Shown: positions 37,957 to 62,215 of the stretch, one piece after another
How the letters are laid out: every line of letters begins with the position of its first letter
How positions within the stretch are numbered: position 1 is the stretch's first letter
Source: Dichomitus squalens LYAD-421 SS1
Lineage: Eukaryota; Basidiomycota; Agaricomycetes; Polyporales; Polyporaceae
Assembly (NCBI RefSeq): GCF_000275845.1
Contig: NW_006766913.1
Span: 191,679 to 255,678 of the forward strand
DNA length: 64,000 nucleotides
Reading direction: 5' to 3'
Notes under the pieces: generated by a model
Database searches by the model: none
What the model was told of the DNA's origin: nothing
Seen by the model: only the letters and a program-made list of their open reading frames with translations
Position numbers and translations under genes: made by a program

Positions 37957-40900
37957 ATGGCGTCCTCGTCGACACAAACGACGCCCGCACAACATCACCC
38001 GCTCTCTCAAGACGAAGTGCCGTCGCGGGGACGTCGGTCGCGTGGTAAGCCGAGCGAGGATAGCCCAAGACCCCAAACGGACTACTTCGCCCTCAAGGCC
38101 AAGCTGGACAGTGCCTCGAAAGAACACACGAGATACACTAACGCGAATTGGGATGGAAGCGTTCGTGGATACGGGAAGGGCACTCGGTGAGCATGGCTGC
38201 TTGATATCACGCATCCTCGTTCAGAAAGGCTCGCTACCGCCACCAATGTAATTAAGACATCCTCCGTTGAGACAAGTTTCGTGCATAGTGCCCTGGAAAT
38301 CCCGAGTCCACTATGATGTATCGTCATTACCGGCTATTCATCTCATTCATTGGATGTGTCTCAGTCATTAGCAGGTGACCTCTAACTAAAGCATCCATCG
38401 AAACTACACGGAAGTGTCGTCTGTCTCAAGTTTGCACAACTCTGTGGAAGGGCATAATGTCGTGCCCGTGTCCAAAGGTCGCGCAGACAGCGGAAGCTCA
38501 GCTCGCACGTCAGGGCATATGGTGCATCCTATGGCCGGGAACGTAGGTCTTTGTACCAGACAGTCTGAGTTTATCCATGACCCCGAAGTGACCGCGGTCT
38601 TCCGCAAATGAATTGGGGTTAGAATCAACGGAATCCCCGTGGCTTATGCAGTCGCGGACGTCCGCTTTCCTTGGGTAACTTACGTCCTTTGGCCTACATC
38701 TCACCTCCATGCGTAATACATGGACCGTGTTTCACTGACTGATATCCCCATTTCGCAGATCGGTAAAACCGCCGCCCCTAATCGTAGTGGAATCTTCAAG
38801 CGATGACATCTCTTCGCAGCCGCCGAAATACGAGCTTCTCGGCGATCCCTCTGCTGAAGGAGACGGCTCTGGCCCGTTCTCCCCCTCCACCACGGCGAAG
38901 ATTTTGTCTACCAAGTGGCATGCGTTTGCGGACGAGGAGATTCGTTCTACTGTCACCGTATATGCAACGACCACCCCGCCGAACGAATTGTCGGAACATC
39001 CATGCTACGCTATAATGCGGGTGCTCTCGTCAGCTGTCCACAATCTCACGCGTGCGCGACATGAGTTAGAGGAGAGTCGACGTGTACTTCTAGAGAAGGA
39101 GGCTGCGCGGAAAGAACGCGCAAAGCAGCTTTTGCAGGAGCTCTCCTCCTCGGAGAAGGAGATCGGGAACCGCGTTTTCCAGTCTCTCTTCCCGGACGAT
39201 GACGAGACATCACACCACGTTCACCGTATGCAACGACAGCAAAGCGTGCTGGTGAGCGTGGTGTGTTCTATCTGCAGCGGACATACGCTGATGTTTCTCA
39301 GTCTCTTGCAGAGTCGCTTACAGAGGCCATTGAAGATGAAGTGCCAATCTCGCGCAGCGTCCCGGAAGGCGATGTCACCCCAATGGCTTCTGTACTCGTT
39401 GTACCTCCAAAACCACAAATATCCACCACTGTCGTAACGGCACAGGCCGTACCCGCCTCTCCTGTCGCTTCGCGAAGTGTGGCCGAAACACTCCCGGCGG
39501 TCCAGGTTGAGCACGCAGATACCACCGACACACGAGAGGCTCCCGACAACGACGAATCTCGGGCTGCAAGTGCGGACCCAGCGAAAACAGAGCGACCATC
39601 GCTTGGAGACTGGATGGGTACCTGGTGGATAAAACCTAAGAGTAAGACAAGAGCCCCTCAGTTACCCTTTCCAGCCTCCGATGCCTCCGATCCGCTTGAG
39701 GAGTCTCCTCGTGCCGATTCGCAGTGCCTCTCTAGTGATGACCTGCCGCCCACACCCTCTACGCCTCAGACGCCTGGGAAGGAGTCAGCAGCAACGAAAC
39801 GGAAACCGTCGCGGAGCGTCTTCGGTACACTGGGCTTCTCCATGTTGAACCCTGCCTCGTCGTCCACGAATGCAATGGTGGTCAAGAAGCGACGCAACAT
39901 GTCTGTGACAGACGTCGCCGGTGCTGAACTTCCTCCGGAGCCGCAAGATGTCGCGCCCTCAGTCAAGTCCGCGCATGTGTCGCCTTCTTCCAGTCCTCTC
40001 CTTTCTCCTGTCGCTGTTAGTTCCGACCTATCAAGGTTCACTTCGTCAACCAATGCCTCTCCTTCCCCAAGCCTCATGGCCCCGGACGAGAAGCCTCCGC
40101 AAGGCTCATCTCTGCGCGCTATCATTCAGGCAACACGTGTCATGACATCGGATGCGAGCAGCATCCTAATTGATCATGGGCGCGAGACGAGCCCGCTCAT
40201 TGCCCAGCTGGCGCTCGAACTCGTCCGTAACGCACGCGAAGCTGGGCTGGACTTCCGAGAAAGGCCGAAGGAGAAGAAGGAACGCAAGGCAGGCGGTGCC
40301 GAGAGGCGCGCGTCTCCTGCGGCAGATGCAGATGCAACCCCCGTCCCATCTCGCATCCTCACCACGGCGCAGGTAGGGCGGCGCACGCCGAAGAGTCGAA
40401 AGCCGAGCGTCAATCTCCCTTCGTTCGCTTCACCTTTGTTCGGATCGTTCGCCATCCAGCAGCAGAAGAAGCCTGCTATTCCTTCCGACAGTGCCCAGCA
40501 GAACCCATCGAGCGACGCCTCCCAGGGCAACCCTTCCACCGCAGCACCTCAGCCTATGAGCAAAGCCAAAGCTGGCTCGGTCCCACTGGAGTCTATTATC
40601 CCTGTAAACGCGAAGCCCCCTACCCAGTATCTTTCGAGGCAGTATACGCCGCTCACCTCCCGCGACTTCCACTTCTCTATTCCGCTGCCTGACAACGAGT
40701 CTTCCATCGCCGCGCAGGTGGACGAACGCAGCCATGAAGGTCTCACAGACCGTTTTGGGTTCATCTACGATATCGCACGATATGATGCGCTCCTGCTCAT
40801 TCGCGCGAAGGAGTGCAAGAATACCGCTCCCGTGTGTCTCACCGGTATCAAGGTCGCAGACCGCACGGAGGACAATACGTGGCCGGAGGATGAGGAGGAC

Positions 40901-42460
40901 GTGACGGCGAACACGATTGAGATCGTGAAGGATGGGTGCGACTGCAATGGCGAGGGCGATGACGGCGCGGACGCGATTAGCGTCAACTCAACGAGTACGC
41001 GGCCGACAGTGCGCAGCGTGCCTGCTGGTGACTCGACGCGGTCCCGCGGCACGTCTCCAGCCTCGTCCCGACGCGTGAAGCGCACGTCCACACTCCTCAG
41101 CGGGGCAAGCACAACGACGATCAAGTCAACTTCGTCTGTGCTCTCGGTCGACTCGGAGACCCCACGACATATTTGCGGAAACACGATCAGACGGTTACTC
41201 TCCCAGCTCACCGATATCCACGATCAGCGACAGGCGGCACAGCGCAAAGAGTGGGATCTCTTTCTAAAGAACCGCAGTAGGGCGATGACGAGCAAGGCCA
41301 TGTCTGCGGGCTCGCGCAGCGCTTCTGCTGGGGTTGTCGGCGGGGCTGCGCAGCTACTTGGATTGGGCACCGCGGACGAGGCAGAGGAGCTCGAACATAA
41401 CGAGGGCCTCATTGGCTTCGCTCAATTTGGGCTATCGTCGAGCAAGGACGAGAAGAAGGAGTTCGATAGGCTGGTGCGGAACGGAATCCCGCTTGCGTAC
41501 CGCTCGAAGGTTTGGCTCGAATGCAGTGGCGCTCTGGAAATGCGCGAGCCGGGCGTTTTTGCAGACCTCCTTGCGGAGTGCGACACCACGAGCAGTGTTG
41601 TGCGCGAGATCGATAAGGACGTGTGTCGGACGATGCCCCTGAATATCTTCTTCGGTAGGACGGGCGCTGGGGTGGAGAAGTTGCGTCGGGTGCTCATGGT
41701 GTACAGCAAGTAAGCGAACTCCGCACCTCTGGTTCTTGCGCGTGCATGCTAACGCATTCGACCTTGCAGGCGTAATCCAGCTGTTGGGTACTGTCAGGGC
41801 ATGAACCTTGTCACGTCGACGCTTTTGCTCGTCCATGCTGACCAGGAGGAGGCATTCTGGGTTCTAGCCGCAATCATCGAGCGCATTCTCCCCGATGATT
41901 TCTTCTCGCCGTCGCTTCTTAGCTCCCGTGCCTGCCCACTAGTTCTACTCGACTACGTCCAAGATCTGATGCCCAAGTTGTCAGCGCATCTCGCCGAGCT
42001 GGGCGTTGACCTCGGCGCGATCTGTTTTTCCTGGTTCCTTTCGTTGTTCACAGACTGTTTGCCTGTCGAGGTAAGTCGCTGCTTTTGGATGTTCGTCGTT
42101 GAACGCTGAATTCTTGTCAGACGTTGTTCCGGGTCTGGGATGTGTTCATGGTGGAAGGCATCGACGTGCTATTCCGCATCGCTTTTGCCATTCTGCGCAC
42201 GAATGAGCATGAGTTGTTACACTGCACATCTATCCCAGCTGTGTATGTTGCGCTCGAGAGCTTGCCTAACCGTATGTGGGAGGCAGACCGTCTTCTTCAG
42301 GTCAGTTCCCCCCCCCCCCTTTGTCTGCTCTCCAGCAGCTTTGGCTCACTGACTTTTCTGAGTCCAGGCTGAGGCGGATCTCCGGAGCACGATCGTGCAT
42401 GCTGATATCGTCAGGAGACGTAATGCTCATATCGCGCAATTGCGGGAGGTCATGGCATAG
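37957..42460 (+). CDS. TBC-domain Rab GTPase-activating protein
   Basis: Exons 37957-38186, 38759-39251, 39302-41709, 41770-42070, 42121-42300 and 42368-42460 give 1234 residues. The C-terminal 280 residues form the TBC domain: NGIPLAYRSKVWLECSGA, REIDKDVCRTMP (the Arg finger in IxxDxxR), PAVGYCQGMNLVTSTLL (the Gln finger), AICFSWFLSLFTDCLPVE and TLFRVWDVFMVEG. TBC proteins speed GTP hydrolysis on Rab GTPases in vesicle traffic. The N-terminal 900 residues are mostly Ser/Pro/Ala-rich, with a predicted coiled coil around LTRARHELEESRRVLLEKEA. The first intron (38187-38758, 572 nt) is about ten times the local norm and may hide another exon. The intron before the last exon contains a 13-C run. 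Confidence 0.88.
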
Positions 42461-59831: not shown

Positions 59832-62215
59832 CTACGAATCGACGAGACCATCGGTGCGGATAGCGCATTGACCCCTCGACTTCGCAACCAAGCCATCTTC
59901 CCGTGGCAAAATATCCTATGCGATACGTGAAGCACGGTGTCAAACGGTGCGCGGCATCGCAAGACAGTACTTATGACTCACGTCTTCGAAGATGCCAATC
60001 GGTAGTGCGAGAGTTACGCACGCGTTCGGCGAATCCTGACGATAAGAACATACAGGTCAATTCTTCGCCGGACATGTAGAAGGGAAGTCATGGATTGCGA
60101 ACCACTATGGCGCCGACGTGACTCTCTACCGGGGCGGCGGAGAGGAGAAGATCTGTCATGGTATCAACGACAGTAAGGAGCGTGTGAGAACTGAGGATTA
60201 TCGTATGGACGCTTACATGCTTGTTGGCGTGCTGTTCACGCAGCAGGGTCAATTATAACATACGAAGGAGTGTCAACCGGTACACGTACTGTATCCGAGC
60301 TGTCGCCGTGCAGATGAGTGAGCAGGATGGATGGATGATAGACAAGATACTGACCTTCTGCAGGTACGCGATGGCATTGAGGGCTGCCTGCTTGTAGGCC
60401 ACAGTTCTGTCATGCGATCTCAACACGGTGCGGTGACAGAGATAGGGAAACGCTCACGCATCCATATTGTACTGGGTACCATCGCCATCTGTTCAAGCAT
60501 GAGCCATGCTTCTGGAATTTTCTTGAATGGATCAAACTAACGGTAGTCCACGCTAATCCCTTCGAAGATGAGCTATAATTGAAGGAGAATTCAACATGAC
60601 ATTTTTCGAATCAGTTTCAGATCTCGGTATCTTCTCACCTTGGCAGAATACATCGGATCAACAGGAGATGGCTTGAAGTCGTTCAAGGTCTCAGATATGG
60701 CCTCAACAATGTATGCCATACAGACGCACCAGGAAAATAGGCTGCTTCAATGCGAATTTCTCGATACCATTTTTGATGATGCTGCAGCTGAACGTGATGA
60801 TACCAGCCTGTTCCACGATTAGATTTGGATCTGCTTCATCACATTCGAAAAGCTCACCATCTCGATGGCACCACAGAAGGACATCTACGTGTATGACTTT
60901 CAGCCAAGACATCTGCAACTTCGAGGACATTCCATACCTCTCCCTGTATGGTTGCAACTGGTCAGGCAGTGTCCCGCAGCAGAAATTGTAAACTCACATC
61001 GCCTTGAGAGAAGTGTAGGTCTCCAACGGACAAGTTTGCGCCCTTGATGAACACCGGGAAGTAGCACCGAGACCCCTTCGACAAGTTCTTGATCTACACA
61101 ACATGCGCATTTGTACGTCAGAACTTATCTGCCTGTGGCATCGGATAAGAAGTGAACACGCTGACATCGCAGTTACCACCATGTTCCCGGCCAGGAATAG
61201 TCCTTGCGCCCTCCTTGTACACCTTCGCTCTGATATAGTCCGGCAAGTCCTGCCCGACGTACGCGCCAACGGGTTCCGGGGGGAATGCGACAGCAGGGAC
61301 GGCACCAGGGTGCTTCGCGATGAGCGCGCCCTCGCGGGTGTTCCAGGTGTCGAGCAGCTCCTGCGAGGGTGCAGTACCGATCAGACCTGGGTGCGAGACT
61401 CCGGCGAAGCGCACGCCGGGAATGTGCCGCGAGGATGCGTAGACCCCGTGGAAGTCCCAAATCGCTTTGGCCGCGCGTGACTTGAACTCCTTGGCTGCGT
61501 TGCGGAGTGTGAGCCGGAGTGATGTGACACGGACGAGGAACGTGGGAGAGAGGGAGAACTTACCGAAGAGACCACCACCGTTGTCGAGCTCGAAGATGCC
61601 GGTATATCCCCAAGGCATCTTGTCAAACGGCTGAACTAGATATACATACTGGACTCAGACTTGAAGAGGTTGTACCTTCGCTGGGCGTCGACATACCATC
61701 GAGGATGTCAACGACGAGACAGTCTCCGGGTTCCGCACCCTCAATGGCTACGGGGCCAGAGAGGTTATGGACCTTTGTCAAATCGACGTCTTTGATATCG
61801 TCGCTGGAGTCATTATTGCCGATCTGTGCACCAGTCCAGTCTACTCAAGAGGCATTGCGCTGAAAATATGACACGCTACTCGACTTGCTGGTTACGTACC
61901 GACGCACTGGACTTTGAAGACGTCTCCAGGCTTGACAGTAGCCACTGGGGGAATGTCGGGGCTACCGACTTCGTGCTCAACAGCCCAGTCTAAACACCAA
62001 TCGAGGTCAACTTACTGCCAGCGATTATGAATGCCCTGTGTATAAGGTGAGTAATACGTCATATTGCACACAGATTGGACGATACCTTCTGCTTCTCTGC
62101 AGGACTGGCCAATCTCGGTTAGCGTGCTTGCGAATCACGTCGCCGTCGAAACTCACACGAAAGGGTCGACCTCGATGACAGTCGGGATCGGAACGGAATT
62201 CACTTTGGTCGCCAT
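59832..62215 (-). CDS. Formamidase (FmdA/AmdA family), 20 exons with several microexons
   Basis: Exons, complement of 62157-62215, 62086-62104, 62016-62035, 61900-61961, 61697-61840, 61564-61635, 61166-61494, 60998-61093, 60938-60943, 60858-60884, 60730-60807, 60639-60671, 60542-60572, 60458-60488, 60355-60406, 60290-60299, 60217-60231, 60103-60152, 59982-60035 and 59832-59915, give 423 residues, the family's usual size. FmdA landmarks are continuous: GIHNRWHPDIPPVATVKPGD, VDWTGAQIGNNDSSDDIK, KMPWGYTGIFELDNGGGLF, DFHGVYASSRHIPGVRFAG, HPGLIGTAPSQELL, SQGDGEMSFCGAIEM, LKQPIF, LIFEGISVDYHGDG, AYLLLSAAPVESHVGAIV and DSPNACVTLALP. The enzyme hydrolyses formamide to formate and ammonia. Nineteen introns of 50-72 nt carry about 1.1 kb against 1.27 kb of coding sequence. 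Confidence 0.9.

Follow-up and report, generated by a model that had tools for sequence, protein, structure and literature searches.

A formamidase gene of Dichomitus squalens with 20 predicted exons, six of them putative microexons of 6 to 27 nucleotides

For the P450 gene families of the white-rot basidiomycete Phanerochaete chrysosporium, microexons encoding 2-10 amino acids were reported together with frequent small introns of 45-55 bp, and, with the shortest of these exons measuring 6 bp, microexons down to that size are already known in this fungal group (PMC1184071). For the P450 families its authors suggest alternative splicing (PMC1184071); the locus described here differs in being one conserved gene for an enzyme, in which six exons measure 6-27 nt, and 15 environmental relatives show no sign that any of them is skipped. 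In Phlebia radiata, exons of very small size, some shorter than a codon, are called typical of the genes, and GAPDH opens with a start-codon exon, but the mean in that species is 6.46 exons per gene (PMC6540522), compared with 20 exons in the 424 codons (stop included) of the formamidase gene; the mean given for Pycnoporus cinnabarinus is 6.7 (PMC4101180). In plants, misannotation of conserved microexons is described as pervasive: reference annotations omit exons of at most 15 nt, which alters the predicted proteins, as was established with RNA-seq (PMC8831610), whereas in the present case misannotation is deduced from protein models. A fungal microexon that affects a conserved domain is also known from Xlr2 of Trichoderma virens; its inclusion is condition-dependent (PMC11121469), unlike the constitutive inclusion favored here. 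The literature found to pair formamidase with microexons was confined to gene-expression work on an ant-infecting fungus, and among the papers listed none was found to deal with the exons of this gene.

The stretch of DNA analyzed here, referred to as the window, comprises 64,000 nt of the genome of Dichomitus squalens LYAD-421 SS1 (40.3 Mb in 116 contigs). It is highly probable, in our assessment, that the window holds a functional FmdA-type formamidase gene in 20 exons, that its introns are old and shared, that they are spliced by intron definition, and that an mRNA containing the microexons gives rise to the full enzyme of 423 amino acids.

Gene model and predicted protein

The FmdA-type gene (62215..59832, minus strand) was reconstructed from the window sequence as 20 exons ranging from 6 to 329 nt and 19 introns of 50-72 nt (Table 1). 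As the first-pass annotation had proposed, all 19 introns are bounded by GT and AG with closing phases, and the reading frame rebuilt from the exons runs without interruption for 423 codons plus the stop. Exons 2, 3, 9, 10, 16 and 17 (19, 20, 6, 27, 10 and 15 nt) are internal, lie between introns with canonical sites and fall within the microexon size limit of 30 nt or less (PMC7821500), some of them within the smallest class of 15 nt or less (PMC8831610). Several borders in the hand-drawn exon drafts proved wrong, and the final 20-exon model is the one confirmed by spliced alignment.

Table 1. Predicted exons of the formamidase gene, in positions of the window
Feature	Position	Strand	Description	Support
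Exon 1	62157..62215	-	59 nt; start codon 62215-62213	spliced alignment
Exon 2	62086..62104	-	19-nt microexon, (V)PAEKQK	spliced alignment, shuffles
Exon 3	62016..62035	-	20-nt microexon, GIHNRW(H)	spliced alignment, shuffles
Exon 4	61900..61961	-	62 nt	spliced alignment
Exon 5	61697..61840	-	144 nt	spliced alignment
Exon 6	61564..61635	-	72 nt	spliced alignment
Exon 7	61166..61494	-	329 nt, biggest of the 20	spliced alignment
Exon 8	60998..61093	-	96 nt; last residues ...HFSQGD	spliced alignment
Exon 9	60938..60943	-	6-nt microexon, GGAGAG = Gly-Glu of GDGE, phase 0-0	alignment, shuffles
Exon 10	60858..60884	-	27-nt microexon, MSFCGAIEM, phase 0-0	alignment, shuffles
Exon 11	60730..60807	-	78 nt	spliced alignment
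Exon 12	60639..60671	-	33 nt	spliced alignment
Exon 13	60542..60572	-	31 nt	spliced alignment
Exon 14	60458..60488	-	31 nt	spliced alignment
Exon 15	60355..60406	-	52 nt	spliced alignment
Exon 16	60290..60299	-	10-nt microexon, LGY(T)	spliced alignment, shuffles
Exon 17	60217..60231	-	15-nt microexon, (T)RQQA(Y)	spliced alignment, shuffles
Exon 18	60103..60152	-	50 nt	spliced alignment
Exon 19	59982..60035	-	54 nt	spliced alignment
Exon 20	59832..59915	-	84 nt including stop TAG	spliced alignment
Intron 8 (54 nt), exon 9 and intron 9 (53 nt)	60885..60997	-	113 nt in total	

The spliced alignments were made with a custom aligner that was blind to the drafted exons and allowed GT-AG introns of 40-130 nt at a fixed cost per intron. 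A profile built from the 120 best-matching relatives, from which the window protein was left out although its columns came from an alignment anchored on that protein, returned the identical model with the stop codon as the sole difference; the 20-exon FmdA gene of the first-pass annotation was thereby recovered, and the coordinates of its six small exons agree exactly. When the single reference 2wkn_A was used instead, exons 4-19, including those of 6, 10, 15 and 27 nt, were identical at all three intron penalties, while exons 1-2 were missed at every penalty tried, exon 3 was found at the lowest penalty only, and exon 20 ended early.

Retention of an intron would introduce an in-frame stop in 15 of the 19 cases. 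In 12 of the 19 introns the loose motif YTNAY, which we take as a branch-like consensus, begins at a distance of 15-30 nt from the acceptor, and in four the stricter branch motif CTRAY lies in that interval, both being raw counts; branch sites are thus not clear for every intron. Intron 18 (60036-60102, minus strand) carries the donor GTTCGC, by eye the least consensus-like among the 19.

The rebuilt protein scores 587.9 bits with the NCBI equivalog model for FmdA formamidase (NF045496; cut-off 500) and 551.9 bits with the Pfam family PF03069 (cut-off 27), and thus passes both. The solved formamidase 2wkn, presumably a bacterial enzyme from Methylophilus, belongs to the same family over its full length and matches query residues 12-404 with 485.2 bits; its gene is bacterial and hence lacks such introns. 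The closest protein among the best 120 matches is that of the polypore Daedaleopsis nitida, which has the equal length of 423 amino acids and 91% full-length identity. Three stretches, labeled HGGN, GDLH and GDGE from the alignment, are conserved in 2wkn and in 23 picked relatives, and GDGE also occurs in 3tkk, a distant relative. In these 23 basidiomycete sequences, which were picked by hand from 142 and include none that lacks exactly Gly-Glu (GE), E269 never varies and G268 is conserved to at least 90%. The gene product is predicted to hydrolyze formamide to formate and ammonia.

Elsewhere in the window, five long open reading frames on both strands between 2948 and 20850 match PF17667, a fungal protein kinase family, and form a local cluster, presumably of FunK1-type kinases. 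An open reading frame of 816 amino acids (39263-41713, plus strand) has a RabGAP-TBC match at its end with 25.6 bits against a cut-off of 25.2; this domain scan covered 10 of the 56 reading frames of at least 150 amino acids.

Microexons in the protein models of relatives

The relatives considered were the best 120 of 7940 matches, 105 from named organisms and 15 of environmental origin only, and, as only the best matches were taken, damaged models are probably under-counted. At the site of exon 9, GE follows GD in 65 of the 105 named models, while the site is altered in the other 40, by the absence of exactly GE in 30 and otherwise in 10. V stands straight after GD in six models, five of which have no intact GE, and in the sixth two additional residues precede GE; the site is otherwise altered in four, two of which lack exactly exons 9 and 10 (P0095 and P0100). 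Exactly the nine residues of exon 10 are missing from the model P0117. At the exon 2 site, 11 residues are absent in 29 of the 105 named models but in none of the 15 environmental ones, and this gap fits a skipped 19-nt exon 2 with use of a GT donor 14 nt upstream (GTCGAC in the window).

The environmental proteins all retain GE (15/15), and they show no gaps at exons 2, 3, 16 and 17. Thirteen of their contigs measure 1297-2150 nt, and a 20-exon structure needs about 2.2 kb (for 421 codons and, at 50 nt each, 19 introns); judging from contig extent against structure, these thirteen are probably cDNA. The remaining two contigs are longer (2859 and 4502 nt) and could hold introns.

Models within one species were compared in eight pairs chosen by name from a larger number, seven of a single species name and one of Postia versus Rhodonia placenta. 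In four pairs (Abortiporus biennis, Irpex lacteus, Rhodofomes roseus and Boletus edulis) one model contains GE and the other lacks exactly GE; this is the sole indel in A. biennis, and the other three pairs have extra indels that are mostly but not all at introns. The only indel in the Taiwanofungus camphoratus pair corresponds to exactly exons 9 and 10, with 426 of 426 aligned residues identical, and in the remaining three pairs the models are set apart by insertions close to residues 53, 336 and 357, all of which are intron sites. A true loss of GE in the GE-less relatives was rejected, as paired models of one named species differ by exactly these residues. Such differences fit a choice made in annotation better than loss by species, and isoforms are possible. 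We infer that the indels in the relatives' models are annotation errors, the microexons being often skipped by gene finders, and expect the microexons to be included in the mature mRNA of D. squalens.

In a rival reading, exon 9 has a regulatory role: under certain conditions it would be left out of the mRNA, the product would be an in-frame but inactive protein without Gly-Glu, and splicing would so tune formamidase activity. Skipping preserves the frame and leaves one intron of 113 nt, and indeed, when both sites of exon 9 were forbidden, the aligner took this single in-frame intron and dropped exactly Gly-Glu. That choice costs the alignment just 9 bits, so partial skipping in transcripts is possible; the corresponding costs of forbidding exons 16, 2, 17, 3 and 10 were 12, 27, 36, 44 and 48 bits. 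Some of the 30 named models without exactly GE are perhaps RNA-based, and the microexon of T. virens Xlr2 provides a precedent (PMC11121469). Against such a switch, GE is retained in every environmental sequence and also in 2wkn and 3tkk, and the residue losses accompany other indels at intron sites, as gene finders would yield. The skipped product would probably be inactive, as it lacks residues that are near-invariant in the 23 picked relatives and also present in 2wkn and 3tkk. We consider a regulated switch very unlikely, and constitutive inclusion of exon 9 a better reading than condition-dependent inclusion.

Intron sites, intron density and chance matches

Indel boundaries were counted in all 120 proteins over residues 12-400, the variable loop 183-210 being left out; intron sites in the relatives are read here from protein models, and the proteins are related, so that the figures do not represent independent trials. 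Of 216 boundaries, 158 fall no more than one residue away from an intron position in the window gene, compared with a mean of 25.3 for random sites (0 of 10000 sets reached the observed number), and 58 are away from introns. Counted as distinct positions, 29 of 53 are at introns versus 6.2 under the null (again 0 of 10000). Insertions of at least four amino acids behave likewise: 22 of 28 are no further than one residue from an intron, against an expectation of 12% (11 of 17 distinct positions). One or more indel boundaries in the relatives' models coincide with 18 of the 19 introns, for introns 3, 6, 11, 12 and 18 in a single model each; intron 5 has none among the 120.

In the formamidase gene, 19 introns interrupt a coding sequence of 1272 nt, or about 15 per kb, versus about 5-6 per kb in three control genes of the same genome; the gene is thus about three times denser in introns than these three, in line with the unusual density claimed by the first-pass annotation. 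The first control, enolase, has 7 introns by spliced alignment (the lowest of the four penalties gave 9 exons, the other three gave 8), its start not being settled by the aligner; a 3-nt enolase exon proposed by the aligner beside a 182-nt intron was not relied on. For GAPDH (contig C54, 177800-181800, minus strand) the aligner gave 5 introns at three of four penalties and reading by eye gave 6. A 5-nt exon near the GAPDH start was found at the same number of penalties and reads TTTCG by eye; the highest penalty merged the first exons, and the start was read by eye. The third control is a second, divergent member of the FmdA/AmdA family (contig C11, 767000-774500, minus strand) with 6 introns and about 7 exons, the smallest of them 21 nt long, a gene read by eye of which only the exon count of 7 and approximate sizes were used. 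The GDGE of this family member falls, by eye, within an exon of about 37 nt, the borders of which are unlike those around the 6-nt exon.

This density of about 15 introns per kb against about 5-6 in the controls would be expected had this lineage or gene recently undergone a burst of intron insertion, but the same sites bear indels in the protein models of relatives belonging to many genera, and exactly GE is lost in 30 of 105 named models, so that most sites appear to predate the lineage and a recent burst is improbable, with only a slight chance of being correct. The heavy intron gain put forward in the first-pass annotation agrees with the high density as such; a gain special to this gene does not agree with the indel boundaries at 18 of 19 sites (five of these in single models), from which most sites look old and shared, nor with the presence of a microexon in GAPDH of the same genome. 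Judged from these protein models, the exon-intron architecture looks old and common to other Agaricomycetes.

A second search, started from a Leucosporidium protein, added 22 proteins, with GE in 21 of them; they include Pucciniomycotina, Tremellomycetes and Ustilaginomycotina, together with two further Agaricomycetes and one more environmental protein. Among them, P0137 of Rhodotorula diobovata reads GDVQQSFC where P0135 of Rhodotorula graminis reads GDGEQSFC, and this replacement of GE by VQ is a six-base read-through pattern found in Agaricomycetes as well. The single Rhodotorula model is a hint that the 6-nt exon may be older than Agaricomycetes and may occur in Pucciniomycotina. It could further be imagined that formamidase genes throughout the basidiomycetes, perhaps from the common ancestor onward, have retained this exon because skipping it in frame provides a way to switch off nitrogen release, an idea to which we give little credence.

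With regard to chance, the observed score was reached in none of 1000 dinucleotide shuffles of the exon 9 region, and in none of 400 shuffles each at exons 2-3, 16-17, 10 and 9-10. Tiny exons are easily found by chance when sought, but a decaying or non-functional gene whose protein was rebuilt through over-fitted exons is extremely unlikely, given that shuffles never matched, that the distant 2wkn_A recovers exons 4-19, and that there is no stop in 423 codons and 91% identity to a relative of equal length. On the sequence evidence, the microexons look real and appear to be coding pieces of a functional gene.

Splicing mode and implications

For a functional formamidase gene of this kind, the mode of splice-site recognition may be considered from the sizes of its parts. 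Introns are short and uniform (50-72 nt), whereas exon size is free to vary between 6 and 329 nt, and intron definition is the mode that fungi are thought to use (PMC2219887). The first-pass annotation had invoked exon definition. Where exons of 6-31 nt alternate with uniform introns of 50-72 nt, intron definition is indicated instead, and we infer the latter as the mode of recognition. Each short intron would then be recognized across itself, and exons as small as 6 nt could be accommodated without an exon-spanning complex. Neighboring introns would probably be spliced out in turn, for example at exon 9, where the sites are six bases apart, and a mature mRNA that keeps the microexons would encode the full 423-aa enzyme.

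In this gene, two near-invariant residues of an ordinary enzyme of nitrogen metabolism depend on one exon of 6 nt. If the present reading is true, the locus would offer a clean substrate for studying how the spliceosome handles two introns separated by six nucleotides, and it would represent a compact and testable example of how microexons are systematically misannotated in mushroom-forming fungi, comparable to the one shown in plants.
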